Of a stretch of 64,000 nt of DNA, positions 2,330 through 53,130 are shown in pieces. The DNA is taken from positions 25,169,398-25,233,397 of the forward strand of contig NC_092577.1 of assembly GCF_037975245.1 (NCBI RefSeq), given 5' to 3'. The translations under genes were made by a program, and so were the position numbers. Under the pieces are notes generated by a model. It did no database searches, was not told the origin of the DNA, and saw only the letters and a list, made by a program, of their open reading frames with translations. The DNA is from Apostichopus japonicus. Lineage: Eukaryota > Echinodermata > Holothuroidea > Aspidochirotida > Stichopodidae. Position 1 is the first letter of the stretch, and the number at the start of each line of letters is the position of its first letter.

Positions 2330-3806
2330 CTACTGATGGCCTACTGTGTGCAACCAATAACGAAGGCGTGAAACCATTCCCACACCAACCGGACAAAAGG
2401 GACACTCCAGCAAAAGGTGTTGCATAGTCTCGATGGCTTTACAGCCCACACGGGGACAAACCCCATCACCTAATCGCCACCTGACTAGGCGAAAATTGTT
2501 AGTGATGAGTACCCCATGTCCAATCCTCCTCGTCAAGTTCCGGAGACGGCTATCTAGCGACTTACAACACACAGACCGCCACACATCTGGAGAGTTTGCG
2601 GTTTGACAAGCCGACGGGCACACTGGCCGGTCATTGGAAAAGGATCCGGGCCAGTGGTGGCGAAAAAGAAACCCACCCCAGAACCTAACAAAAAAAGGCA
2701 AAGGGACACGAAGGATTCTCAAAAGCAACAAAAACACCTTTCAAGAGGAGAAAGCGCAGTTTAGATGGTAGGTGGACCAAGCCAAGCCCACCACTCAAGG
2801 GGGTCTTATACAGGGTTAGCGCTTATACTGGTTAGCGCTTTCCCCAAATGAAATCGCACCAAGGCATGTTCCGGTGCACCGATCACCGTACCAGGATACC
2901 AAAGGAGAGGAACACTAAAACGATTAACAACTGTAACCTTCCCAGGGAGGGAGAGCCACCTCCGACTGAATGTGTCGAGCCTTGTCTCCACCTGATCAGC
3001 CTTCTCGGTCCAAGTGGTGGGGCACCATAACCTAGCCAGATGCCGTTTACCCTGATCATGACATCTGACCAAGTAGCGTCGAACGGGAGAGATTGGCCGC
3101 GCCAACCTCCTAAACGCAGCCCTTTGGCCCCAGTAGCCTCTTGGAAGGTGGCCAAAACATTCGATATTGAAGGAGACGAGGTCCGACAAAATACAAGTGA
3201 CGTCATCGGCATACTGCACGCATTTAACTCTAGCCACACCCGGTACATTGAAGGGTCGAAAACCCAAGCATCTGTCCAGCGACGTACTAAGCGTTTCGCT
3301 GAAGAGAACATACAACAACGGGGAGAGGGGACAACCCTGACGGACTCCCGTTAACAGTGACCATGCTCCTTATAAAGTAAAATGACCCAACGAATAAACA
3401 CTAGGTTGAATCCGAAGGACTCTAAGGTTCTGAACAGGAAGTCATGATCTAGCATGTCAAAGGGCTTCTCCTGGTCCAAAGTGACCATTGCACATGGCAA
3501 ATCAGGAACTTTAACAAACTCGATTTCCTAATGCTTTGGCCAGGATTTTGTAGTCCACATTTAACAGCGTTATTGGACGCCGACTTTGGGAGGAGAACAA
3601 TATTTCCAACCCGCTGTGTTTGGCTCATGTAATTCAACTGGAAAGCGGTAGCGAACACATCTCTCAAGTCCCCACCGAGGACCTCCCAGAAGGTTCTTTA
3701 GAACTCTGCAGGGAGGCCGTCGGGACCGGGGGACTTTCCCTTCTTTATCGCTGCTACCGCTGTCCAGAGCTCACCAACGGAAAGATTCGAACCCAAGCTA
3801 TAGTTT
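2330..3806 (-). pseudogene. LINE family B ORF2: reverse transcriptase and C-terminal region, broken
   Basis: The minus strand shows fragments of a LINE reverse transcriptase. The YADD catalytic box (QYADDVTC) lies at about 3,200-3,220, the start of the LFSETLSTS helix near 3,310, and motifs resembling GNIVLLPKS near 3,600. The C-terminal segment contains RRIGHGVLITN and a CPRVGC/H/C metal-binding-like cluster near 2,400. Frame changes occur every few hundred bases. Without the reverse transcriptase the copy could not move on its own. Confidence 0.75.
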
Positions 3807-5006
3807 TTACTCTCGGGAGGGGGAGGGGGGCTTGTCTATACCAGACAACAAGTCCTCCTGGAGATGCTCGGTTACAGCAGCCCTGGAGTACAGGTTCGAA
3901 AACAACGACCCAAATACCCCTAGTACTGCCTGCGGGCTCTCCACGACGACCCCACCAGGATGACGCACTGCCCTAATTCTGCGTTCAACCACAGACTTGG
4001 TATCGTCCCGGTAAAAACGAATAGTGGGCTTCTCGTCCGCTTCAACAAACTGGATTCTGGCACGCACTCGGGCTCCGTGCAGTTTCTCATCGAGAAACAC
4101 CCCAAGTGCATGCAGATCATACGATGAAGAACCATCCCTTCCTCTACTGCACAGGGAGGGAATGGAACTTTGGTGAGCTCTCTCAACACAATACCTAATT
4201 GCGAACTGCTTAATAACAATTTCCGTGTTCAGCCAAAGTCCCTTCTCCACATGAAAGGACTCCGGCAGCTGCAAGCGCAAAACAAGTGCGTCATGATCAG
4301 ACAAAGGAAATGAAATAATCGAGCACCGAGATCGAGGAAACTTGCGTGGGGCATATAACCTGTCGAGTCTGGATGAAACTGATCCATCTGGTCTATGCCA
4401 CGTACAAGCAACCACCTGGAGATTTTGGGACCTCCAAACATCCACAAGATCTCGGTGCTTGACAAACAAGCCTAGCTCAATGAAGCCAGTGGTACAATTG
4501 GGGGCTCTTTCCTCGAACGTCTATCTAAAGCAGAGTGAAGGACACAGTTGAAGTCCCCACCAAGGATACAATTTGCCCTACCCGGTACAAAGGATGGCAA
4601 GACCGTCAAGAAATCTTTCCTACATGCTGGCCGGTTGGGGGCATAAACATTGCAGACTACCAACTCACCCTACCAACTCACCCCGCGTGAGCATTAAATG
4701 TATGCACACACCACCCGACCTTCATCATGGTCTTTCTCCACTTTTCCTCACACAATGACACAGTTTTGGGGACACCAAAATTACAGTCCCGCAAGATGCC
4801 CCTGATCCAAAGGAGGCATAAAGACCTCCCCCTCCCCACTCCAAGGACCAAAGATGAACATCACTCTCCCAAGATATGTGGGTCTCCTGCAAAAGGACCA
4901 CATCCACTTGGAGCAACTTGCAGAACTGTAAAATCCGCCGCCTTTTGGAGGTACCCCTCATCCTATTCACATTAAGGGTGACGAGGGATAAGGTGTCTGG
5001 TGACAT
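3807..5006 (-). pseudogene. LINE family B ORF2 N-terminus: APE-type endonuclease, frameshifted
   Basis: The predicted protein begins MSPDTLSLVTLNVNRMRG at 5,006 and shows the endonuclease signatures in order: the N-terminal TLNV motif, LQETHI, the CGTVI strand, NVYAPNRP, GGDFNCVL, the tyrosine-bearing DRLYAP and the terminal SDHD. In the APE family these place the catalytic Glu, Asp/Asn and His that nick target DNA for target-primed reverse transcription. At least two frame breaks (near 4,690 and 4,470) separate the segments, so no intact enzyme is made. The 3' part leads into reverse transcriptase sequence below 3,807. Confidence 0.8.
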
Positions 5007-5757: not shown

Positions 5758-7557
5758 AGAAGTTCCATAAGTGCTTTTTACGTGCAAGAAAACGGACACG
5801 GACCAAATGTCAACAACACCAAAAAACAACCCGTCTGTTTAACAACCACCAAAAACCCAACTGAAAACCCACAAAGAGAAATCTCTCACTAACCCACAAA
5901 TGTATACAATGTAGCGTTCAACGTGACGTGAAAAGGACACGGACCCAAAGGCCAACAGAACCAAAACAATAAAGCTCTACAAACCAGCCCAAAAAGCCAA
6001 CTCCAAACCACAAACAGAACCCCCAACCCATATTATGTAACGACCACACAACCCCCCCCCCCCACACCTAACAACTAACCCACTCCAAAACTTCATCCGG
6101 GGTACACCGTCCCGATAGTAGACAACAGGCCTACGCATTACCTCCGAAGTTTTCCCAATATGGGTATTTTCAGGCCCCTAGCAGTGTTCCTCCTTTTCTC
6201 GTCAACCTTCATCGAGTGGACCTCCCTGTCAGGAGGTCCACTAGCGACCATCGTGTCCGGTATAGCGGCTGCGGGTAGGGTGGAAGGGCCACTCGAGTCA
6301 ATGAGATCAGTGGCCTGTTTCGTCTCCTCAAACCAATCGGAGGACTCCTTAGCCACAACTACTAAGGCTGTAGTGCAGTCCTCCATTGGCGAGTCAGAAT
6401 CTGGCCCACTTAATGTCTCTTGGGCCAGTTGTCTCGGGGCCCGACTAATATCACCGATAGCGGGCGTAGCTACCGGTGTACCAGTACAAGCGGCATCCTG
6501 CTCCGCATGCCACTCCGCTAGTACCATCTCCGCCGTTTTGTCCTGCTCTGCCTCAGTGGGCAGTCTGGCAGTCTCGGCAAGTTCGATTAGGGAAGAGGTC
6601 GGACACGAAAGGGGGAACAAAGCCTCCACCGGGGCGCTAGTGTCGGACACTGGGGCGATGAGAGGAGCATCAGGTGGTACGGTGTCAGAGGCCGGAACGG
6701 GGAACGCTTCAGCCACGCCCGTAGCCACTCTCGCGGCGTATGAGCGGTCTGGGCATAAACGGGCGAGATGGCCCGTTTTACCACACGAGTTGCATACGAT
6801 ATCCCCTTTTTACTCGGCCAGGGTACGCCCAACCTGCAAACAGCGGCTACACCGCTTGTTCGGGCACAACCTGGCCTCATGCCTTTCCAGCCCACACCTC
6901 CAACAAGTGCGAGGCTGGCCCGGGTATGCAATGTGGGCCCCTGTGACCATTAGCCCGCAAGGTAGAGGGGATATCGGACTTCCATTCTAACTCGTCTAGT
7001 TCCCGGTCTTGACACCCTTACATTCAAGGAATTCCGGCTCCTCGTAGCCGGTCACTTTCCCAAAACGCCCCAGTGTCCGCACAACAACCTGTTCAGACAT
7101 GTCCAGAGGGAGATCGAGGACTGTCACCCACACCGAACTGTCATACGGTGTGACCTTCAGTCCCTCAACTCCCTCCAATACATGGACGCGGGTAGCCTCC
7201 GAGGTGAATCTAACATCAAAACAATTCATACCCCGGAGAGGTTTACACGCTGAAGCGCGTGAACCTCTCCAGGGACCTTTAAACCAACAGAACGCAAATC
7301 TGAAAAAAACTTGTCCGGGGACGACCTTAGCCTCCCCCGAAAAACTCAACAATAAGATTTTGCTGTCACGTCGAACCGCCATGACAGCTAGGGGTGTGGT
7401 AAGCCACGCAACTAAGAAAACCACAAACCACGAAACAAAGCTAAACTACACTAAACAAACTACAAACTATTGAAAGGCCAACGTAAAAAAGACTGTGTGG
7501 TCAACGAAAAGTGGAGAGCAGCCGAAAACATGTCTGCACTCCACGAACACCAACTGC
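5758..7557 (-). mobile_element. Tx1-like LINE, family B, copy 2 (3' UTR joined straight to ORF1)
   Basis: This copy has both termini but almost no ORF2. Its 3' end is the conserved CACGTAAAAAGCAC motif, read on the minus strand at about 5,758-5,770, followed upstream by a C-rich 3' UTR to about 6,128. There the sequence jumps into the end of ORF1, which runs up to an ATG at 7,382 (MAVRRDSK). The 5' UTR ends at about 7,557 with the same start, shared with family A (CAGTTGGxxTTCGTGGAGTGC). It is therefore a roughly 1.8-kb internal-deletion derivative, lacking endonuclease and reverse transcriptase. Confidence 0.8.
6150..7382 (-). pseudogene. LINE family B ORF1 (gag-like), frameshifted
   Basis: The ORF starts MAVRRDSKILLLSFSGEA at 7,382. 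The N-terminal half ends in a VWVTVLDLPLDMSEQ strand/helix region that resembles the RNA-binding part of Tx1-type ORF1. It continues through CCHC knuckles near 6,780-6,900 (the same knuckles read cleanly in the plus copy at 43,960-44,140) into a Pro/Thr/Ser-rich acidic tail ending near 6,150. Frame changes near 7,000 and 6,730 break it. Function is inferred from family: binding of LINE RNA in a ribonucleoprotein particle. Confidence 0.75.
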
Positions 7558-20339: not shown

Positions 20340-21427
20340 ATGGCATCGCGCCGTGATTCTCGGATAGTTAAGTTGTCGTTCACCGGTGAACAAGCTGTTC
20401 CACCGGTGCAAGTTTTTAGTATTTTGAAGAGCAAGGGTGTTGTTGTGCCTGGAGAGGTTGACGCTTTGCAAGCTCTCCAGGGTCGTAATACGTACGATTT
20501 ACGTTTTACCAGTGACGTGGCCCGTCAGAAAGGTGTCACGTTGCTGAGTAACGTCGAGGGTATGACAGTTGCTCCATACGAGCGATCCGTATGGGTAACT
20601 GTCATCCACGTAGGACTAGAGGTGCGGCAGGAACTTGTCGTAACGGTTTTGGGTCGGTTCGGGGCTGTCAAGGCTGCCAAAATGTGCTCCTATGCACAAG
20701 CCCCTGGGGTGTTGAACGGGCACCGACAGGTTCGGATCGACCTGAAACAGGACATTCCCTCCTTCCTGTTTATAGCAGGGCATAAAGCCCACGTGCGGTA
20801 TCCCGGTCAGCCCCGTACCTGCTTCAGGTGTGGGGAGACCGGGCACGAAGCCAAGGGCTGCCCAAACAAGAAATGTGGGCGCTGCCTTCGTCTTGGGCAT
20901 GATAGCACCGCTTGCCCAAACGAGGTTGTGTGCTCACTTATGTGGGAAGGAGGGACATGTCTTTCGAGCTTGTCCCTCCTCTTATGTCTCTAGGACTAAG
21001 AGTGGGGGTAAGTCAAGTTCCGACGCACCTACTACTTCACGAGAGGGGGAATCTGGTGGGATTTTACCCTCCCCTGCACCTGGTTCACCCTCCCCCGTCG
21101 TTGCAGACCCCAACCCCGTGCCCGCACCGAGAAAGTCTCCACCAGCTTCCCCCATCAACTCGTCCAGTTCCGTCCCCAGTCCGCCGCCGGTATCGCCAGA
21201 TCCGGAGGCTGTCTGACGGAGAATCGGTGGTCATCGATTCTCCGGAGGCTCTGTCTGACAGCTACTCCGGTGAATCGGTGATCAGCGAGCCGAAACGTGC
21301 CACTGGGACGAGCTGGTACGACGAAATGGGGGAACCCTCTCTTAAAAGGTCGGCTTCAAGTGACGACTCGGACGACGATATGTCGTCTAGGGCGCGCTTG
21401 AAGCTTACGGAATCGTCGTCTTCGTAG
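20340..21427 (+). pseudogene. LINE family A ORF1: RNA-binding protein with CCHC knuckles, two frameshifts
   Basis: The ATG at 20,340 gives MASRRDSRIVKLSFTGEQ. The N-terminal 160 residues include VWVTVIHVGLEVRQELV, common to both LINE families. At about 20,818-20,925 lie CFRCGETGHEAKGC and CGRCLRLGHDSTAC, then after a frame change CGKEGHVFRAC. The tail is rich in Pro and Ser and ends in an acidic SSDDSDDDMSSRAR stretch before TAG at 21,425. Frame changes near 20,930 and 21,200 split it into three frames. ORF2 begins 20 bases downstream. The protein would package LINE RNA. Confidence 0.85.
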
Positions 21428-21447
21428 TTTTGCCCCACTGCCCTCTC

Positions 21448-24400
21448 ATGGCCCATACACTTTCAGTTGCCACTTTGAACGTGAATGGCATGAGGGATCA
21501 TCGCAAGCGCAGTCGCATTTTCCAATATTGTAAATCAATGGAGGTCGACTGCGTTTGCCTGCAAGAAACACATATTTTGGAAGAAGATGTCCCTCTATGG
21601 GCTTATGAGTGGGGTGGTGAGCTGCATGCTTCGTTTGGTTCGTCTTCATCCTGTGGCACTGTCATCCTTCTGTCAGCTCGTCAGGCGGGTTGTGCCACTA
21701 GGGTGGAGACGGATCACGAGGGCCGATTGGTTTGCATTCTATTCAAGTATCCACAGGGTAACATCGCCATTTGCAATGTGTATGCTCCCAATCGGCCTTC
21801 TGCTAGACGAGATTTTTTTAACACGCTGCCTTCCTTTGTTCCTGGTAGTGCGCCGTGTGTCATGGTCGGAGACTTTAACTGTCCCAGACTCGGAACTTCT
21901 GTGTCTGCAAGTCCCGACGCTGGGATGACAGAATTGGACAGATTCACTTCGGCACACCTTTTAGCCGATGTCTGGAGGCATATGCACCCGTGTAGTACGG
22001 TGTATACGTGGGTGAGGCCTAACGGAGAAGATGCCTCCAGGATAGATCGAGTGTATGCGCCCGTAAGTTTTACATTTTCGGGTTGCGAGACGCTCAGCTG
22101 TCCGCTCTCTGACCATGACACTGTAGTAGCACGTTTTGTTTTGCCTTCCATTTTCCCCATCGGGCGGGGCCTATGGAAGCTTAACTGTCGGATTCTTGGC
22201 GAGGCAGAGTTCCGCCAGGGTTTCGAGACCAGGTACAAAGGATGGCAAACATTGAAGCCGGCCTTTGCTTCTACATGCCAATGGTGGGATGAGGTCAAGT
22301 TGCGCATCAAACGCTACGCAATTCAGTATTGCGTGACCCGCGCACGGCGTCGAAGAGAAAAATTCTCGAAGCTGTGCGCGGAGGTGAAGTTTGGCGACCC
22401 TTCGGCTGTCATCGCTTTGCAGACTTATCTCGATGAAAAGTACCACGGTGCCCGCGTCAGGGCCCGTGTCGAAGCGGTGGAAGCCGAGGAGCGCCCTTCA
22501 CTGAGGTTTTTTACCAGTCCGTTAGCTCATCGGCGGGTGACAGACGCGTCCCGTCTGTGCGCGCAACCGATGGGACCGTGGTTAGTGACCCTCACGGCAT
22601 TGTCCGCGTATATAAAGAGTACTATTCGAGTTTGTTTACGCGTGGCAATGTCGACTTGTCGGCACAGGCTGATTTATTGAGAGGAATCTCAAAAACCGTT
22701 CCCCACGATGTCAATGATATTTTGGGGGGCGAAATAACCACTGTTGAGCTTTGGAAGGCGCTTTCGAAGATGAAGAATGGCAAGTCCCCGGGTTCGGATG
22801 GGCTTCCGAGGGAGTTCTACCGAACCTTCTGGGCAATAATAGGACCCGACATCAGAGCCGTCTTCGAGGACGCCTTCCAAAACGGACTGTTAAACCAAAG
22901 TCAACGTCTGGGCATGATTACTTTGCTGCCCAAGTCTGGGGACCCCTTGGATCCCCGTAACAAGCGTCCGATCACCTTGTTAAATGTGGACTACAAGTTG
23001 CTGGCTAAGGCTTTGTGCAACCGCCTTGCACTGGCTATGCCGCATCTTGTGGGTGATCTCCAGACTTGTGCAGTGAAGGGTCATTGCATCCAGCAGAACT
23101 TGTGGTTGATGCGCGACTTGACCGACTTTGTTATTGAGCGTGATCTGCCATGTGCATTGGTATCTCTGGACCAGCAGAAGGCCTTTGACATGGTGGATCG
23201 CGGTTTTTTAATGAATGTATTGGAGACGTTTCAGTTGCACCCGGTTTTTCGTAAATGGATTTCTGTTTTGTATCAGGAAAGTTTCAGTTCTGTTATCGTA
23301 AATGGGTTTTGTTCGGAGGTTTTTAACGTAGAGAGGGGGGTGCGCCAGGGGTGCCGTCTGTCTCTCTCTCGTCTTTTGGAAAGGGACTCCAGACTTGTTC
23401 CATTCGTTGTGCCAGGGGGTGCCAAAGTGAAATGCGCTCAATATGCAGATGACGTGACATGTGTTGTTTCGAGTCTGGGCTCCTTTCGCGCACTCTCGCA
23501 GGATCTATCTATTTTTGAGAGAGCTACCGGGGCGAAGTTGAATCCAGAAAAGACAAAGGGCCTTCGTCTTGGTAGCTGGAGATACAGAGACTTACCATTC
23601 TGTGCGTCGTAGTCGGATCAGAATATCAAAATTAATGGTATATGGTTCGGCTACGATGCACCTTGTGATGTCACCTGGAGCGAGAGGGCTGAGGTATTTG
23701 AGAGCAGACTCGAAACCTTTCGCACCCGCTGGCTTTCGATCTTGGGGAAAGTCACCGTTATTAATCGTTTCGTTTCGCCCATCTTGTGGTACCCGGGCGC
23801 GGTGTACCCAATTCCGCGTCGCGTCCTGGTGCGGTTGGAGAGGGCGATTTTTTCATTCATATGGTCTGGTGGTACAGAGCTGGTCAAGAGCGCGATATTG
23901 TACCAAAAACTGGAGAAGGGGGGACTAGGGGTGGTTCATCTGGGAAGTAAGTTAACTTGTTTGTTATTTAAGCAATTGTTTGTAGCGGTAACTGACCCAG
24001 GGTTGCCTTGTTCATATTTTGTACGTTTTTGGGGCGGGTTGCACTTGCGTCGATGGGTTCCGGCGCTGTTTAGCAACAGAACCGCATAGAAGCACACCAA
24101 GCAGAGTGGTGCGTGTCATTTGCTCCGCTCTTATTGAGTTACCCCCTGTTGACCAATTTTTGTACAGGGACGTCATCCTGTCGAAGTATGGCGTTCGGTG
24201 CATTCAAGACTGAATGGTTGCAGGCTCCGTGATCTTGCATGGAGAATTGCACACGGTGCCTTGGTGACCAATCTGAAAAGGTATCACTGGCGATTGGGTG
24301 ATGGACTGTGCCCGAGGACCGGCTGTGACAGCTTAGAGAGTACTGCCCATGTTTTTTGGCATTGCCCCTTTGTTTTGAACTTGTGGGAGTGGTTTCAGTC

Positions 24401-24551: not shown

Positions 24552-27019
24552 ATGTGATGTTGTTTTTAGGGGGAAATTTGCCAGTTGGCAGGCAGTCCTG
24601 GAGGCGGTGAAGTCTGACATTCGCCTTCAGGTCGAAGGCGATTTTCGCCGTTTATCTAGGGCTGCCTTTTTTGGACGGTGGTGTGCTGGGGAAGGGTGTT
24701 TTGTTTCGCTGCGTGCTGGTCGTCCTTTTGTAGTTTTTTAATATTTCAGTGGGGGGTTGGGCGTTTTGTCTCTGCAGGTCGGTGAGTATATGTACTTCTT
24801 TTTGGCTCGCTTGACCCTGAGGTTCGTTTGTAAGAATGGGAGGGTTTGGTAGTGCCGTTTGGCATCCCGTATGACGGGTCACGTAAAAAGCACATCCTGA
24901 TACATACAGGCAGGCTAAAGAACAATCAAATGCAGAGAAAAAGCAACTAGATGCATATCCACCACCAAAACAAAGGAAAATGATGTTGATGGGACATCAA
25001 TCAACACTGAAGGATTGCTTGGAGAAGAGAAAGATATGGGATATCAATGATAAGCGAGCAGAGGTTATACACCAGAAGATAATGAAAATGATTGCTATGG
25101 ATAATCAGCCATTCACTATTGTAGAGGTTTTATTGAGCTCATTGGACATCTTCAGCCAAACTACATACTTCCAAAAACATATGAGGACTTACAAAAACAT
25201 ATGAGCTAAGCTGAAAATAGAGCTACTTCCAACAAATGCACCTTTCATATTATTCACTTCAGATATTTGGACATGTCAACATTCTAATGAGTCTTTTGTT
25301 TCCTTAACTGCTCACTGGATAGATCCTGACTTTCAGAGGAAGAATGCTGTCCTTCATGCTAAACATTTTCCTGGCTCACACACAGGAGAAAAAATTGAAC
25401 AAATGATTCGTAGCATGCTGGTCGATTGGGGAATCACTGAGGGGAGACAACACATCTTAGTTCGTGATGGTGCAGCCAACATGGCTTTGAGAACGCGACT
25501 TGCTGATTTAGAAAGTGTTCATTGTTTTTTGCACATACTGGACCTTCTTATACGAAGCAGCATTTTGGATCAACGAGCAGTGATTGACTTGTGTGCAAAG
25601 GTGAAGAGAATTGCCATCCACTTCAGTCATTCAAGTCTAGGTTGCAATGAGCTAAAGAACTTTCAACGCGAGCAAGGGGTGAAGCAACCCTTAATCACAG
25701 TGCAGGATGTCCCAACACGTTGGAACAGTACCTTTATGATGCTGGAACGTGCGCTCACACTTAAAAGGCCTATTTTGCTATATGCTGCAAATCATGTGAT
25801 CCTCATTTTGAGCTCTAATGAATGGAATCTTCTGGAGAAAATGCTGCACATTTTGCAGCCATTCTACGAAATAACCAAACAAGTCAGTTCAGAGCTGTGT
25901 TCTCTCAGTGATGTAATTCCCCATGTTGTTGCCCTCGACAGATACCTATCAAAGGTAGCATCTGAAATTGACAAATATTTCAGTCTACCGATTATTCCAA
26001 GATCCTCTGACCCTGTGGCATTCTGGAAGGAACAAAAGTTCATTTTCCCGACTATTTCTCAACTGGCTCGGTGTTATCTGTCCTGTCCTGCTTCCTCTGT
26101 ATATTCAGAGCGTCTTTTCTCTGAAGCAGGAAAAATTTTTGCCCAGCAACGTGCTCGCCTTCTTCCGAAAAATGGAGAAAAACTTGTCTTCCTTCATCAC
26201 AATTTGAGAAAATATGTTCAACATACAGTGAAAGCGGGAAATTAAATTTGTTTACATTCCCAAATAGCAAGGAATGATATAAATATGGAAATCATGTTGT
26301 TAAATTATTTACTAGGATAATTGTCTCTGTATGTGATAACTGTAGAAAGGTTACTTTTGAAATTGTTTTCATTGTCAGCTCTGGAATTAATCTTTTTTGA
26401 TGAGAATTAAAGTTTTTCTAAGGTTTAAGAATGAACTTTAAGATAAAGTGGTTTCAGACGTACAGTATTTAACTATATAAGAGATTGTTTCAGACATAAA
26501 ATTCATGTTTTCATGTTTTCTCTGAATTTTTATGTCTGAAACAAACATGAATGCCAACAATAATGGGAAAGTAAAGATTCAATGGAACAGTATTTTGACT
26601 GAAAGGTCTATTTTTAACTGCACAATATTAAACTGATGAAGGCTGCAAGAAATGATTTCACTGCAAACTGTATTTGTTGTACAGTATATAGCTTGATATT
26701 ATTACAGTAGTTGTATTACTTTGGTTGATCTTTAGAAACAGTGGGTCAGACCATTCAGAAAATTAAATTAAACATGTTAAACCTAATTTTGTCCTTACTT
26801 TTAATGTTTTTAATTTTTGAAAATAGTTTACATTGATTTAAGTTAATACCAACACCTTTTTAAGGAATAATTCAGGCCAGATTTTGAAAAAGATCCGGCC
26901 AGATTTTGAAAGATATCCGGCCGGATTTTGAAAAATATCCGACCGGAACCGGATAATTTTTCACTATCCGGCCGGATAGTCCGGCCGGACCGGATATCCG
27001 GTGCATCCCTAGCCAGCAT

Positions 27020-43737: not shown

Positions 43738-45407
43738 ATATGATACACCCTTGGGGGTGACAGTCCTCCATCTCCCTCTGGACATGTCTGAACAGATTGT
43801 TGTGCGGACACTGGGGCGTTTTGGGAAAGTAACCGGCTACGAGGAGCCGGAATTCCTTGAATGTAAGGGTGTCAAGACCGGGACCAGACGATATCCCTCA
43901 AGTCCGATATCCCCTCTACCTTGTGGGCTAATGGGCACAGGGCCCACATTGCATACCCGGGCCAGCCTCGCACTTGTTGGAGGTGTTGGCTGGAAGGGCA
44001 TGAGGCCAGGTTGTGCCCGAATAAGTGGTGTAACCGCTGTTTACAGGTTGGGCATACCCTGGTCGAGTGTAACGGGGATATCGTATGTAACTCGTGTGGG
44101 AAAACGGGCCATCTCGCTCGTTTATGCCCAGACCGCTCATACGCCGCGAGAGTGGCTACGGGCGTGGTTGGAACGGTCCCAGTCCCGGCCTTACACATCG
44201 TAACACCTGATGCTCCTCTCATCGCCCCAGTGTCCGACACTAGCGTCCCGGTGGAGGCTTCTTTGCCCCTTTCGTGTCCCACCTCGTCCTTCATCGAACT
44301 TGCCGAGACCGCCAGCCTGCCCACTGAGGCAGAGCAGGACAAAACGGCAGAGATGGTACTAGCGGAGTGGCATGCGGAGCAGGATGCCGGTAGCTACGCC
44401 CGCTATCGGTGATATTAGTCGGGCCCCGAGTCAACCGGCCCAAGAGACTTTAAGTGGCCCAGATTCCGACTCGCCAATGGAGGACTGCACTACAGCCTTA
44501 AAAGTTGTGGCTAAGGAGTCCTCAGATTTGTTTCACGAGACGAAACAGGCCACTGCCCGCCCTGCCCGCAGTCGCTTCCGCTATACCGGACACGGTGGTC
44601 GCTTGTGGACCTCCTGTTCCTGACAGGGGGGTCCACTCGACCATAGTTGACGAGGAGATAAGAACTCTGCTCGCTCGGAGGAAAAGGGGGAACACCGCAA
44701 AGGGCCTCAAAAGACCCGTATTATGAAAACCTCGCAATATTATGACACCAGACACCTTATCCCTCGTCACCCTTAATGTGAATGGGATGAGGGGTACCCC
44801 CAAAAGGCGGCGGATTTTACAGTTCTGCAAGTTGCTCCAAGTGGATGTCGTCTTTTTGCAGGAGACCCACATATCTTGTGATAGTGATGTTCATCTTTGG
44901 TCCTTGGAGTGGGGAGGAGGTCTTTACGCCTCCTTTGGATCAGGGGCATCTTGCGGGACTAATTTTGGTGTCCCCAAAACTTTGTCATTGTGTGAGAAAA
45001 GCGGAGAAAGACCATGATGTGGTGTGCATACACTTAAGGCTCACGCGGGGTGAGTTGGTGGTGTGTAATGTGTATGCCCCCAACCGGCCAGCATGTAGGA
45101 AAGATTTTTTCACGGTCTTGCCATCCTTTGTACCGGGTAGGGCAAATTGTATCCTTGGGGGGGGGGGGCTTCAACTGCGTCCCTTACTCTGCTTTAGATA
45201 GACGTTCGAGGAAAGAGTCCCCCACTTGTACCACCGGCATGATTGAGCTAGGCTTGTTTGTCAAGCACCGAGATCTTGTGGATGTTTGGAGGTCCCAAAA
45301 TCCCCAGGTGGTTGCTTGTACGTTGCAGAAACCAGATGGATCAGTTTCATCCAGAGACAGGTTTTACGCCCCGCGCAAGTTTCCTCGATCTCGGTGCTCG
45401 GTTATTT
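43738..45407 (+). mobile_element. Tx1-like LINE, family B, copy 3 (interrupted by a DNA transposon)
   Basis: The copy starts inside ORF1 (VTVLHLPLDMSEQIVVRTL), shows three zinc knuckles at 43,960-44,140 (CWRCWLEGHEARLC, CNRCLQVGHTLVEC, CNSCGKTGHLARLC), then ORF2 from about 44,742 (MTPDTLSLVTLNVNGMRG). Endonuclease codons run to RSRCSVI at 45,404. The text resumes at 52,988 with CPLSDHDALVLRLQLPESF, so the 7.58-kb element between interrupts one formerly continuous LINE. The remaining 3' part ends near 53,130. A G-run at 45,158-45,167 adds a frameshift. Confidence 0.88.
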
Positions 45408-45423
45408 TAGACCATGGGATGAT
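45408..45423 (+). repeat. Left terminal inverted repeat of the 7.58-kb transposon
   Basis: TAGACCATGGGATGAT, perfectly complementary to 52,972-52,987; preceded by the TTT duplication. Confidence 0.9.
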
Positions 45424-45708
45424 GTGGATTATCTTCTTGTTTTGTGAATATTTCAGGGCAGGACGACAACAATACATTAAAATATATTGTTTTAAAAATG
45501 TTACAAGAAACTGAATGTTGTTTTGATTAAAATCTGCTCAAACGGTTTAAATATGATAAAATGTATGATTATTAGCAACATTCTATTGTCCAATCACATG
45601 CCATGTAAGAATACGACAATCCAATCACAGCGAAGCTCTCATGTAGTAACATTTTATTTACAACCTAGCATATAGCATAGCACAGTAGGTCTATATGTGT
45701 TAGTCACC

Positions 45709-48700
45709 ATGGCAGCTACGCCACACGCGGAGAACGAATTGTCTCCTAAATTTTGCTGTATGCACGTCGTAACTAATACTAAACAGAGTTTGACACCTTT
45801 CAAAATTAAGAGCTGGTCGAAATTCATAGAATGCCAAAGTCGGTGGCAAAACTTAGACTGTTTCGTGGGTGAAATTGCCAGGCGAACTACACAACAGTTT
45901 GGCCTGAGCCTAACACAAACGGAGCCTAATGTTATACCCGGGTCTGGTTATCACCGTGAGTGTTACCAGAAATTTTGTAACGTACGAAGGTTACAGACAG
46001 CAGAAAGCAAGAGAAGAAAATTGCAGACAGATGAAGGTATGTAGGCCCATGTATAAAATTAGGGATTTTGTACGATCACTATGCTAGCCTGGAGCATAGG
46101 GTCGACCTATGCTATGGTACTCAAAACTTGAAGCTAGGCCTAACTAGTCTGCAGTGGTTAAGTGAGAGTAACTCCATGTTGACTGCATATTTTCAGTGGA
46201 GGACTGAGTCACAGCTAGTGAAGCAGTGCCCTTTTATCTTGCTGGGAAACAATGGGGGTGGGTAATACTCAGCCGATCATTGGTCATGAATGGAAAAAAG
46301 CTGAATTTTTCATTGTATTTTTAGTGGAGGACAGAGTGACAGCACTTGATGTTTTGTGATGTCTGACTAAATTAATAATAAAGTTTTTCAAATCGAATGC
46401 AGGGCTGCGTTTTCCACGGTTGAGATCATATGGTTTTAGGATACCGTAACATTTATATAGTTTCTCACCCAGGGGGAAAAATGATCAAAACTAGCCCACA
46501 CGTAGCAAATTACTTCAAACTGCTGACTTCAATACATCACAAAGATCTTAAAACCAAGGAGCTACCATGAGTGGGGGTGGGGAGGGGGCTTGCATCACAG
46601 CCCCAACCTTTTGCCTTGTTGAACATTTGTTTGATTTCACAGTTTCTGAAAGTGGTTGTTGGCCCATTTGGGTACATATGGTCCATAGTGGGATAGTTTA
46701 CTCTTAGGTTTTAATCATCATGTAGCTTAGGCTGGTAGTTAATCCTCGGCTAAAGATACTCAGATGCTAGGAAAGTTAAACATAGGCCAAGAGGTAAAGT
46801 CCTGTCAACACAATCATTTATTAAGTCCCATAGTGTCTTAAGAGGAGTGGAAGTTGGGAGAGTTTGTTGTTCCAGTCATTTCTGGTTGGAAGTGGTGAGC
46901 TATATGGTATCTGGTTCTAATAGACACCTTACTTAATTTTTCACACAGATGCTGATATTGAGTCTGATTGCGGTAATGAAGGGGACTCCTCAGTACTTTT
47001 ACAGGCATCAAGCAGTGGTTCAAAGGTCTTGCGGTCCAGTTTCAAAACTCCACAGCATGATAAACAACGAAAAGATGTGCTCTCGAATGTGTGTCTGATT
47101 TGTCAGAAAGATGCATATCTCAAGACTATAACTGGAGCTAGAAGTAAAGTAAAGTTAACGACCTGTGAAAGGAAAGAGGCACACATTTTGCTGGAAGCTG
47201 CACGACTCCATGGTGATCACAGGATCCTACTGCAGATCGAACACAAAGATTTAGTTGCAATCGGAGTCCGTTACCATAACAAATGTTATCGTAACTTTAC
47301 ACGTGGTGTCATTGAAATGAAGTCAACAGCTGAGAAGGAAAGCAAATTTGAACCATCATTCAAAGTTTTTGCAGAGTCAATTGTAACAGCCCGCCTTATT
47401 AAAGGCCAGGAAATCCTCCGTCTCAAGACTCTTAATGTGTTGTTTCGTCAAATAGTCAAGAACACACAGGCTCTTGATGCTTCACATTTCACAACACAAC
47501 GACTGAAGGTTCAGTTGAGGACACGGTTTCATAATCTGGTGTTTGTGAAACCATCGAAAAGGTTTGAAAGTGAAATTGTCTATGCCAAAGATATTAATGT
47601 AGATAACATTGTTGAGAGAGTAGCAGAACAATTCCAAACTCCCATTTCAGAATGCAGCACTACTACTTCTGATGAGTCGGATGCACGTACCATAGATGCC
47701 ACAGCAGATGACTACACTAGACTGAGAACATTGTATCATGCATCACAGGTATAGTGATCGTCTTCTGTATTCCCTCTATCAATTTTATTCTGTCTTTCCA
47801 TTTGTCTGCAAAATCTTCTTCAAATTGATGCTACTGTATAAATAAGGGCATTTATGAATTATGAAAAATCTATGATTACTGTATGATGGACTATCAGGGG
47901 TGTACCATCATTGATCTTTTCACTATCATGTAAACCCAAGAATTTTGAACTATTAACAAATTTGGCATTTCAAGTTTCTCAATTGGGATTCGTTCAAATT
48001 GCAGTCATTGGTTTCACAAATGAGCACGTAAACGTGAGGAGAAAATAAAGTGCAATTTCAATAGTATGATTGTGGAGTAGGATGATCACTTAAAAAAGTA
48101 TCCTCGATAATTATCTACCCTGCTCTTCTCGACAATATGAACTGTAAAATAATACACACCATCCCAATTATCTGATACTGATTATAGTCAATGTCGTTGA
48201 AGCCCATGATCTCCCTATGTTTTACCACCGAACTGTTCAAATCTGACTACTTTCTAAACATTTGATCCTAAAACCACCCCCATCTCCTACGCATTTGATT
48301 AGAGCATAACATCATTATAAGTGTTTGCATCGGGTACCCTGGTACCGGACCATCACGTCACTGCCCCGATCCTTTTTTGTTACTGTAAATTTTGAAATTT
48401 TTCACATCCGGGTGGTGCCGGGCACTGTATCGGGGTGTGCTGGGCCATACTGGGCATGGAAGAAAAAACTAATCATTATATAACAGACATATCTGGCATT
48501 ACTATTTACTTATTATATTTGTATTACTTTATATTTCATAGATCATTAAAAGTATACTACAAAATACAACTAGTGCTCCTCGATGGCCTCCAACTGCAGA
48601 TGACCTGACCATAGATGCAGCAAGAAACATAGTGCCAGTACCACTTTTCAATTTCTTGACTTGGTGTGTAGGCTTTTCCGATGAAGCAGAGTTGACTGAC

Positions 48701-51700
48701 CAGGTTTGCATTTCTGAAGATAATAACCAGCGTATACTTTCCCTTGCACAGGATTTATTGTATACAAGTAAGAAAGGGTGCATTCTTCTGCCAAAGCATT
48801 CATCATTAGCTATGACTATTCGTCATATGACAGGTTCAGCTCGACTAATTGGAATGCTTAACAGATTCGGTCACTGTGTTAGCCATTCAATGGTGCTGGA
48901 ACATGACACAGCTCTAGCTGAAAGCCAACTGAAGAGGGGAGACGATGCTTTGCCTGATGGTGTACAAGACTGTTTCACTACCTTAGTGTGGGATAATAAC
49001 GACTTTGGTGAGGAAACCATATCCGGTAAAGGAACTACTCACAATACTAACGGTATCCTAATACAGAGAAACCAACCCATGATTCAGGAACATGAGGCTC
49101 CAGATAGTATTCCCAAATCAAGGAGAAGGTCTATTAATCCACCAGATTCAGATATTACTCCTTACTTTGGTGCAACGAAGAAAGGTCCCACCCCTGGAGG
49201 CATTGACGTTGACATCAAGGATGAGACCTATCATCCAGCCCAAGATGAAGCATACAACCTGGATGTTACATTTAACCTATCACGGTTACCACATCACAAT
49301 GGATCACTACTACCTAGCTGGACAGGTTACAACACACTACTACGATCTAACAATGTTCCTGTTAAGTCTAACATATTCTACCTACCTGTGATAGATGCAA
49401 GTCCTACAGAAAACAGTACTATCTACACCATTCTGTTGAAGAGTGTAAGAATCGCAGATATACTACAACAGGAATCACTTGTTGTTGTAGTGGATCAGGC
49501 TGTATACTGCAAACTACAACAGATCAGATGGCAGAATCCACATTTCATGAAACGAATTGTAGTTCGACTGGGAGAGTTCCATACTTGCATGGCATTTCTT
49601 TGCTGTATAGGGAAACGATTTTCTGATGCTGGTCTTCGTGACATCCTTATCGAAGCGGAAGTAGTGGCTCAGGGGTCGATGAATGGTGTACTCTCTGGAC
49701 ATCATTATAATAGAAGTCTCAGAGCTCATAAAATTGTCAGTGAAGCATTGGAGCACATGAGGTGGAATGCATTCTTGAACACACTAAATGATGACGAGCA
49801 GGCAAGTGCAACAGATGTGTTACTTCAACTGCAGGTGTCTTTTCCTGGTTCTGGTCATGCAGAGTTCCGGCAAAATAATGCCTATAAAGCTTTATTGGAG
49901 AAGTATGCCTTATTCATAGAATGTCAGTCCACTAAGCCAACGTTTAACTTCTGGTCTTCATACATAGACATGGTGCAATTGCTTCTTAGATTCATCCGTG
50001 GTACAAGGGAAGGAAATTGGTCTCTTCATCTGTCAACTGTTCGTTCTATGCTTCCATGGTTCTTTGCATATGATCATATCAACTATTCCCGTTACTTACC
50101 TATATATTGGCTGGAGATGCAACAACTCTCTTCAACTCATCCTGGAGTCTATGATGCTTTCATGGCCGGTGAATTTGTAGTGCAGCGGCAAGAGTATCAC
50201 GGTTTTGCAGGAATCGCTGCAGACCAGACGATAGAGCAGACAGTCAACAGGGAGTCGAAGATGAAAGGAGGCGTAGTCGGCCATACTACTAGTCAATCCT
50301 ATTTCCACAGATGGGTTCTTTCTCAGCATTTGAGAGCGGCAATTCAGGTCCAGTGTGAGTCCATGGTAGGGAAAGGTAATCAAAACAGAAATGCAAAAGA
50401 GTTAGATGCTACACGAATTGTCAGGGACAATGAATGTGTCCAGGCAGTGTGTGACACTTTGCACTGTATGCTTAATCCATTTGAAGAATCAGGACAACAA
50501 CTGCTACATATTACTTCCGGTGCTGTCGCACCCACAACTGTTGAGGAGCATTTATTAGGGGCAAGGTTAATCGGTGAAAAATCAGCATCAAATTTTTTCA
50601 AGGAGAGACTGCAAGAACTTCCACAAACCTTTGAAACGGTATAAACTTCAGTCTTTCTCCAGCATGGCCAAGACTACCAAGACAAAAATCAAGGGAGGGA
50701 AGGAAGTAGTTTTGAAGCAAGACAGAAATTTGTTTGCAAGATTGCTTATCATCTCACGACATAGAGAATTTAACTTACAAGATATTCTCAAGCACAGCAT
50801 CAATTCAGTCCCACTTCCACTCGCCAATGACAAGGGGGGTATCAACAAAACCAACAAGGCCAGCCTGATGAAATATATTGAATCAATTACTGAACCTCCC
50901 CCCGTTGTAACACAAATTCCACGACAGAGCATTTGGGTATTGGATGCTATGGCTCTCATTCAGGAGACAAATGTGAAAATGTTGTCTGGTATGACATTTG
51001 GAGAATTTGCTAAATATTTATTCAAGAAGGTGGTTACCATGGCTACAAGTGTGTTCTCAACAGCTGTTCATGTTGTCACTGACCGATACCCCGCCATAAG
51101 TATCAAGAATGCAGAAAGAGGTCGACGTTCAACTGGTGGTGTCGAACAGGTGAAGATATTTGGACCAAGACAAACAATTCCAAGCCAGTGGAAGAAATAT
51201 TTAGCAAGTGGCGACAACAAGGAGGCCTTAGTTGAATTCATATACCAAATGTGGACAACATATGATGCCGAATTGTTTGGAGAGGTGACAGTGTTCTTTG
51301 CGCATGGTGACTTGTGTCATTCCTTTCAAAACAAATCAGGAGAGCTCCAGGTACAGGCTGTACACCAGCTTAACTGCAGCCATGAAGAAGCCGACACGCG
51401 ACTTCTACTGCATTGTATGTATATAGCCGAGCACCCACCAACATCAACAGGAACCACCAATATAATCATCCGGAGCCCAGATACAGATGTCTTTGTGATA
51501 GCGACTGGTGTCTGCAGTGAGATGGATGCTAACATCATGTTTCATACTGGAAGAGGAGAAAAGATGCGCACAATAGACATTAAAGCTGTAGCAAGCAACC
51601 TAGGTTCTCAAATGACTGGGGCTTTAATTGGACTTCATTGCTTCACTGGGTGTGACTCGGTTAGTGCTTTTTTTGGGAAAGGCAAGTCGAAAGCTTTAAA

Positions 51701-52249
51701 ACTAGTTATGGCAGACACATCATACCAAGCTGGTTTCCAGAAATTGGGCCAAAGCTTCTGTGTCACAACTGAATTATGTCACCAATTGGAGGAATTTACA
51801 TGTAAGCTGTATGGTCAAGAGTGTGAAGAGGTCAATCTGGCAAGATATAACATGTTTCGGATGGACTGTAAGTTTGAAACATCTATGCCCCCAAACAAAG
51901 ACTCACTACATCAACACATTCTCAGAGCCAATTATCAATCAGCCATTCATCGACGTGCATTGCAACAAGTCCCTGATGTTCCAAGTCCTGTTAACCATGG
52001 TTGGAAACTAGAAAATGGCGAGCTGGCGATTCACTGGGGAGACCTATAACCTGCACCAGATGATCTGTTGGCTGCTACACAGTGTAGCTGCAAAAAAAGC
52101 AAATGCACGACAAGGCAGTGTGATTGTGTTAAAAGTTCTATTTCGTGCACAGACTTGTGCAAATGCTATAACTGCAACAACAAGGCGGATACTGATGAGG
52201 AGTTTGCTGATGATGTAAGCCCACAGGTGGAAGATTCAGATACAGAATA
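45709..52249 (+). CDS. Transposon protein: Cys/His modules, FEN1/XPG-like nuclease, CXC domain (three exons, damaged)
   Basis: Exon 1 is 45,709-46,036 (ATG in CACCATGG; donor GTATGT). Exon 2 is 46,949-47,748 (CACACAG; GTATAG). Exon 3 is 48,542 to about 52,249 (ATTTCATAG). Phases agree at both joints. Exons 1 and 2 each carry a Cys/His module ending YHxxCYxxF (YHRECYQKF and YHNKCYRNF). Exon 3 begins with a large region containing VVVVDQAVYCKL, RLGEFHTCMAFLCCIGKRF and NRSLRAHKIVSEAL. After a one-base frame change near 50,630 follows the nuclease segment. Acidic positions match FEN1: D at 50,943 (VLDAMALIQ), D at 51,081 (VTDRYPAISIKNAERGRRS), E/E/D at 51,384-51,395 (HEEADTRLLLH), D/D at 51,480 and 51,486 (SPDTDVFV), D at 51,654 (GCDSVSAFFGKGKSKAL). 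An in-frame TAA at 52,047 precedes the CXC domain (CSCKKSKC ... CDC ... CKCYNC). Confidence 0.75.
46037..46948 (+). other. Intron 1 of the transposon gene
   Basis: Bounded by GTATGT and TTTTTCACACAG; contains no other coding signal. It joins codons in phase 1. Confidence 0.65.
47749..48541 (+). other. Intron 2 of the transposon gene
   Basis: Bounded by GTATAG and TTATATTTCATAG, phase 0. It contains the palindromic phrase GGGTACCCTGGTACC near 48,330 and no coding signal. Confidence 0.65.
50574..52049 (+). pseudogene. FEN1/XPG-type 5'-nuclease segment of the transposon gene
   Basis: This is the part of exon 3 in the second frame. The N-terminal block (D124 of this frame) and the DxxPxxKxxxxxRR-like block (D170 in VTDRYPAISIKNAERGRRS) correspond to the FEN1 N region. 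The HEEADTR block, the SPDTD block (residues 303/305) and the GCDS block followed by a Gly/Lys/Ala helix (residue 361) correspond to the FEN1 I region with its helix-hairpin-helix. All metal-binding acids expected for a flap/XPG 5'-nuclease are present. It would cleave branched or flap DNA; a role in processing transposition intermediates is inference. TAA at 52,047 appears to replace a Gln codon (CAA), since the frame continues openly beyond it. Confidence 0.7.
52068..52249 (+). CDS. Tesmin/TSO1-type CXC domain tail of the transposon protein
   Basis: Same frame as the nuclease segment, separated by one stop. The Cys pattern C-x-C-K-K-S-x-C ... C-x-C ... C-x3-C-x-C-x2-C-x-N is the CXC fold, known to bind DNA with Zn. 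It ends with an acidic tail (DTDEEFADDV ... DSDTE) and stop at 52,247-52,249. Confidence 0.75.
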
Positions 52250-52345
52250 GATAAAGGTTGATGGGTGACAAATAGCAGGAACTTTTTGGAGTTAATTTGC
52301 ACGATGTGTATGTAAGCAAATGATTTTTAATCAAACCAATATAGG

Positions 52346-52926
52346 CTATACAAATTCATTTTTTATGTGGGGTGCCCCTTTAATTATTTAAGAAGCTAAT
52401 TAACCTTCCATCGAGCAAGTTCAGAGAAAAACAACTTCTTCCAAAATCAGCACCTTCAAAAAAAATCAGTTGCCAAATTTTAGCTCCTGTCTACAAATTT
52501 AATTTTTCATGTGGGGTTCCTCTTTAATTTATTGGGGAGCTAATTAACCTTTGATTGAGCAAGTTTGGAGGTGAGTAACACTCTTTTTCAAAATCTGCCC
52601 CTTAAAAAGTACTTACCTGACAATGTTCAGCTCCTGCCTATAAATTCAATTTTTAATAGGGAGTACTCCTTTAATTAACCAATTAGAGAGCTCATTAACT
52701 TTGATTGTGCAAGTTCAGAGAAAAAAAAATCACTTATTCAAAATGAGCCACTTCAAAAGTACTCTATTGCCCAATTTCAGCTCCTGCCTATAAATTCAAC
52801 TATTCATGTGGGGTTCTCCTTTAAATAATCAATTAACTTGTGATTGAGCAAGTTTAGAGAAAAACAACACATTTTTTCGAATTCAGCACCTTCGAAAGTA
52901 CTTGCTTGCCAAAATTCAGCTCCTGC
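52346..52926. repeat. Four tandem 140-150-bp units near the transposon's right end
   Basis: Units start at about 52,346, 52,491, 52,640 and 52,790. Each has a CAAATTxAATTTTTCATGTGGGG start, CTCCTTTAATTAAT, GATTGAGCAAGTT(C/T)AGAGAAAAA, CACCTTCAAAAGTAC and CAGCTCCTGCCTA. Subterminal position suggests a regulatory or transposase-binding role, or expansion by slippage. Confidence 0.85.
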
Positions 52927-52971
52927 GCAAAAAATATTCACAGAATTCAAAATCTAAGCATAATTTTGCCT

Positions 52972-52987
52972 ATCATCCCATGGTCTA
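52972..52987 (-). repeat. Right terminal inverted repeat of the 7.58-kb transposon
   Basis: ATCATCCCATGGTCTA, complementary to the left end; followed by TTT and the resumed LINE B endonuclease codons. Confidence 0.9.
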
Positions 52988-53130
52988 TTTCATGTCCTTT
53001 ATCTGATCATGACGCACTTGTTTTGCGCTTGCAGCTGCCGGAGTCCTTTCATGTGGAGAAGGGACTTTGGCGGCTGAACACGGAAATTGTTAAAGAGCAA
53101 AATTTCAAGGAGCAATTTGTCGAGACCACA
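52988..53130 (+). mobile_element. LINE family B copy 3, continuation after the transposon
   Basis: The reading CPLSDHDALVLRLQLPESFH, then EKGLWRLNTEIVKEQNFKEQF, directly continues the endonuclease broken at 45,407. At about 53,130 it abuts a reverse-strand piece of another family B copy. Confidence 0.85.

Follow-up and report, generated by a model that had tools for sequence, protein, structure and literature searches.

The window analysed here, a 64,000-nucleotide stretch of the Apostichopus japonicus genome, contains a DNA transposon of 7,580 bp (positions 45408-52987) that, judging from its sequence, is very probably a decayed cut-and-paste element of the AcademX type, in which a single ancestral protein would have united a DDE transposase and a metal-dependent, FEN/XPG-like nuclease with zinc-finger-like motifs and, at the C terminus, a CXC domain. 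The original prediction had described the nuclease and the CXC domain and overlooked a DDE-transposase-like domain upstream of them, which is likely to be the main engine of the element. The features of the element and its insertion site, in window coordinates, are:

4214-4940, minus strand: empty site with a single TTT, a paralogue of the joined flanks within a LINE-like repeat (from alignment)
45405-45407: left target-site duplication, TTT (from comparison of the flanks with the empty site)
45408-45423, plus strand: left terminal inverted repeat of 16 bp, end sequence TAGACCATGGGATGAT
45709-46036, plus strand: exon 1, encoding a zinc-finger-like motif, C-x2-H ... H-x2-C-Y (splice context, motif)
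46949-47748, plus strand: exon 2, with a second motif, C-x2-C ... H-x2-C-Y (splice context, motif)
48542-50641, plus strand: exon 3, with the DDE-transposase-like region (frames, splice context, conserved acids)
50571-52046, plus strand: frame of the FEN/XPG-like nuclease (motifs, profile comparison)
50617-50618, plus strand: frameshift where the C8 copy has 11 additional bases
52047-52049, plus strand: in-frame stop TAA, which is CAA in the C8 copy
52077-52184, plus strand: CXC domain (tesmin/TSO1-like, Pfam TCR, PF03638, E 1.8e-7), downstream of that stop and in frame with the nuclease
52415-52987, plus strand: 3' tail, containing divergent direct repeats with a mutual similarity of about 73-76% (sequence comparison)
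52972-52987, minus strand: right terminal inverted repeat of 16 bp, exact reverse complement of the left end
52988-52990: right target-site duplication, TTT (from comparison of the flanks with the empty site)

Element boundaries and insertion site

The two ends are exact reverse complements bordered on both sides by TTT, just as the original prediction had it when it called perfect 16-bp terminal inverted repeats and a TTT duplication. Its placing of an empty-site homologue on the minus strand near 4,310 was likewise correct, because the joined flanks align with window positions 4940-4214 on that strand (90% over 735 bp), and the junction there holds one TTT (ATTATTTCATTTCC) against two at the filled site. 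The multi-copy ends, the 3-bp duplications and this empty site bear out the claim that the boundaries establish mobility; the element moved as a whole, with a stagger of 3 bp. The flanking repeat is LINE-like: a frame near the paralogue (2809-3369, minus strand) matches reverse transcriptase in Pfam (E 2.8e-7), and zinc knuckles are found by Pfam in frames 43867-44409 (plus) and 6141-6809 (minus). The frame running across the empty site itself (3810-4520, minus) has no Pfam match at E 0.01, and we read it as the endonuclease region of the same repeat. The window also carries a frame with a hAT dimerisation domain (25205-26242, plus; Pfam E 5.8e-20) and a frame with an endonuclease/exonuclease/phosphatase domain that probably belongs to a LINE (21391-22677, plus; E 1.2e-17).

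Gene structure and decay of the window copy

The proposal of one spliced gene filling the element holds for the splicing, as three exons join in phase across GT-AG splice sites, but not for the intactness of the gene. The frameshift near 50,617 separates the transposase frame from the nuclease frame, and the TAA at 52047-52049 cuts off the CXC part. The window copy is unable to produce the complete protein, and any present mobility would depend on another copy.

The DDE-transposase-like region

Three acids encoded by exon 3 likely constitute the DDE transposase triad, by our own assignment from conserved motifs: the D of WDNND (48992-48994), the D of VVDQA (49493-49495) and the E of DQTIEQ (50234-50236). 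The frames that cover these positions retain them throughout (7 of 7, 9 of 9 and 10 of 10, respectively). As first acid we had considered the D of VIDASPT; it was abandoned in favor of WDNND because L016, L017 and L020 have N, P and Q, respectively, in its place. The region has no Pfam match, and a PDB profile search with the alignment of the region (A1) returned nothing.

The FEN/XPG-like nuclease

All five motifs that had been read from the product are present in the order given, beginning at 50937 (VLDAM), 51075 (VTDRY, within VTDRYPAISIK), 51381 (HEEADTR), 51474 (SPDTD) and 51648 (GCDS). In the nuclease alignment (A2) the seven active-site acids are invariant columns. In an alignment of 17 rows they agree in 15, 16, 17, 17, 17, 17 and 15 rows; these rows are not independent of each other, since some are near duplicates (L121 of L017, L114 of L020, and L115 and L117 of L030). 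The misses fall in two decayed related rows (L115 and L117, with Y at the first position and a gap at the last) and in one misaligned row (L116).

For profile comparisons, a contig scan with a three-sequence alignment yielded 444 FEN relatives, of which 80 were kept and 79 entered the profile; a first scan of genome contigs with human FEN1 had matched 18 stretches, none of which was confirmed, and in viral contigs 29 and 100 stretches fitted a pattern, none being confirmed as a relative. When aligned by HHalign against 82 FEN sequences, nine rows of the element nuclease scored 35.5 (E 6.7e-4; reversed profile 14.6, DDE profile 20.4), a value that the best of 100 column shuffles approached at 31.6, and 17 rows scored 36.8 (E 4.4e-4), with none of 200 shuffled versions above 24.7. 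The resulting register pairs VLDA with AIDA, VTDRYPAISIK with VFDGKPPE-FK, SPDTD with SQDYD, and GCDS..GKGKSKALKL with GTDY..GIGPKKALEI. HEEAD stands where FEN proteins have EAEA; the alignment does not fix which of its acids correspond to E158 and E160 of FEN1. The element nuclease resembles FEN1/XPG (Rad2) enzymes in the order and spacing of its acid blocks, the K/R after the second block and a helix-hairpin-helix-like block, and differs from them in HEEAD, in its location within a transposon protein and in lying below the reach of Pfam and PDB sequence detection.

The assignment to the FEN1/XPG class stands in part: the motif order, the acids and a moderate profile match speak for it, whereas Pfam, PDB sequence searches and single-sequence structure prediction give none. 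It is on the latter results that the main alternative for this domain would draw, namely that the block belongs to the transposase, or is some other metal enzyme whose acids follow a similar pattern, and is no homologue of FEN/XPG. Neither Pfam nor PDB sequence search finds XPG in the region, and a PDB profile search with A2 recovered no nuclease, only the LIN54 chain 5fd3 (E 0.013). The HHalign probability is only 27-34% (34% in the 17-row test), and AlphaFold2, given the single sequence of the nuclease, returned a pLDDT of 31.8. Against this reading, four motif blocks align with FEN in order and in register, including the helix-hairpin-helix-like GKGKSKAL, and the FEN score exceeds those of all 100 and all 200 column shuffles, the reversed profile and the DDE profile. 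We therefore consider this alternative unlikely, and retain a FEN/XPG-like nuclease as the preferred reading.

The CXC domain

The CXC domain claimed for the product is clearly there: after the nuclease, the window frame matches Pfam TCR with 31.8 bits, against a gathering cut-off of 23.5. Among the members of A2, in which the window row stops before the domain, TCR matches at E up to 10 were obtained for 3 of 7. The significant TCR match, together with the weak profile match to chain 5fd3, relates this part to the Tesmin/TSO1 CXC proteins such as LIN54; the LIN54 chain has two aligned stretches, in contrast to the one TCR stretch of the window frame. In a literature search that did not extend to the 2020 paper defining AcademX, we found no published description of a CXC domain in AcademX or Academ.

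Copies of the window element in the genome

The original prediction had proposed to search the genome with the terminal inverted repeat for further copies with 3-bp duplications, and had named a lack of other copies with these ends as evidence against it; such copies do exist. The exact repeat occurs 11 times in the 671.6-Mb genome, on each occasion as the end of a copy of the window element. Allowing at most one mismatch gives 19 occurrences, against 11 for the pattern read backward as a control. Six one-mismatch matches lie outside known copies (G000 C9 169425-169440, and on C4, C7 at 23.78 Mb, C14, C21 and C22); they may be remnants, or mere chance, given the 11 that the backward pattern produced. 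Genome-wide, 8 matches were obtained with the left end and 22 with the right, 15 of the latter being to internal tail repeats with 68-76% identity. These tail repeats are spaced about 140-150 bp apart and are present in sister copies as well.

Copies with both ends and duplications were found on C20 (AGG), C15 (TAA), C16 (AAT) and C7, where one end begins AAGACC instead of TAGACC and the duplication TAC depends on reading this odd end as TAAGACC, with one extra A in the repeat. Two copies on C7 (L008 and L009) lie 1 Mb apart in the same flanks, which would reflect either duplication of part of the chromosome or an artefact of assembly, and the second was left out of the insertion count. The C8 copy is 99.2% identical to the window copy over 6,890 bp and is without the right end, and places on C10 and C12 match at a single end.

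Exon 3 is unmatched in the C20, C15, C7 and C16 copies (L006, L007, L008 and L010), which can thus encode neither transposase nor nuclease. In the C15 and C7 copies both edges of the deletion are the same (element positions 2672 and 6916) and the insertion sites differ; a shortened, non-autonomous form of the window element has thus probably been mobilized in trans, with outside help. The C8 copy is open through the positions of the frameshift and the stop of the window copy; its own frame, however, starts downstream of WDNND, and this copy is interrupted as well. Among the nine places found for the window family (the window, C8, C20, C15, two on C7, C16, C10 and C12), none holds an intact copy.

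Sister families and target-site duplications

The nuclease frame matches at least 95 places in the genome (87 of 377 candidates were scored), and 22 further regions were examined out of this match list. Frames of 1,551 to 1,572 amino acids, counted from stop to stop, run unbroken through transposase, nuclease and CXC-like tail in L013, L014, L015, L017, L018 and L020. L013 and L014 share 99.98% identity across 8,392 bp, with none of 1,572 codons differing; along with a third copy known from its two ends alone (L122 and L123; G000 C19 23288854-23297244), they lie on three chromosomes with the duplications GGA, ACA and GTA. The unbroken 1,572-residue frame, the three different duplications and the near identity suggest that this family was recently active.

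The other sister insertions show ATG and TAG (L017 and L018, 99.84% identical), TGA, ATG and ATA (L019, L020 and L021) and CAG (L016). In total, exact 3-bp duplications, read by eye on printed flanks, accompany all 14 independent insertions in the window and sister families whose two ends can both be read. All ends start with TAGAC or TAGTC apart from two: that on the right of L016, which starts with TAGGC, and the aberrant one on C7. The dN/dS values of the near-identical L019, L020 and L021, 0.57-0.87, are based on 18-28 changes and are of little informative value. L015, L022 and L030-L033 yielded no recognizable ends; no case of a homologue in a fixed host locus lacking the terminal repeats was established.

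Relationship to AcademX and AcademH

AcademX (Kojima 2020, as cited in PMC10045372) is a lineage of the Academ superfamily that combines a DDE transposase, an XPG nuclease and target-site duplications of 3 or 4 bp, as opposed to the 9 or 10 bp of AcademH; according to the same source, Kojima suggested that duplication length is tied to the enzyme encoded, a nuclease in AcademX and a helicase in AcademH (PMC10045372). The window element is like AcademX, as portrayed there, in its 3-bp duplications (14 of 14) and its terminal inverted repeats, and probably also in its nuclease type and its DDE-like transposase; the likeness is to a published description, and the CXC domain that follows the nuclease, undescribed for Academ in the literature found, sets it apart. 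The original prediction of an uncommon class of transposon carrying its own nuclease gives way here, since the same protein also harbors a likely DDE transposase. Nor is the class new, because the pairing of a DDE transposase with an XPG nuclease, along with duplications of 3-4 bp, is what defines the published AcademX lineage. AcademH belongs to the same superfamily in the published scheme, but is ruled out by the 3-bp duplications in 14 of 14 insertions and by a Pfam scan of the five window frames (E up to 1) that brought up no helicase.

A further view would place the element in a separate superfamily outside Academ that independently combined a DDE transposase, a FEN-like nuclease and a CXC domain. 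The lack of a CXC domain in the Academ literature found, and a comparison made with a description in place of reference sequences, speak for it; the nuclease type and the 3-bp duplications, both of which agree with AcademX as published, speak against it and leave it improbable, slightly more so than the non-FEN reading of the nuclease. That a host gene family merely looks mobile, as the at least 95 matching places might suggest, is scarcely credible: ends, duplications and empty site coincide exactly, three sister insertions sit on three chromosomes with different duplications, and the host XPG_I matches are four other places. This idea was rejected on the strength of the empty site and the independent duplications, and the AcademX-type transposon is the interpretation that we favor.

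Proposed mechanism of transposition

A division of labor along the protein may be envisaged: 1) The DDE part would bind the ends and join them to target DNA cut with a 3-bp offset, this domain being the likely catalyst of strand transfer. 2) More speculatively, the FEN-like nuclease, with its helix-hairpin-helix-like block, might serve in excision or in the processing of gaps, by trimming flaps, hairpins or the non-transferred strand. 3) The CXC domain and the zinc motifs might, equally speculatively, bind DNA.

Implications

We tentatively advance, as a possibility that we hold well short of conviction, that in this genome the proteins of AcademX combine, within one chain, two catalytic centers and a CXC domain, undescribed for Academ, and that at least one sister family moved recently. 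If so, they could be the first system in which to test directly what a flap nuclease does in cut-and-paste transposition; the near-identical sister copies with their unbroken frame and fresh duplications are natural material for such a test. The element also explains the multi-copy proteins with HEEADTR and GCD motifs in this genome as transposon proteins, and not as host repair genes.
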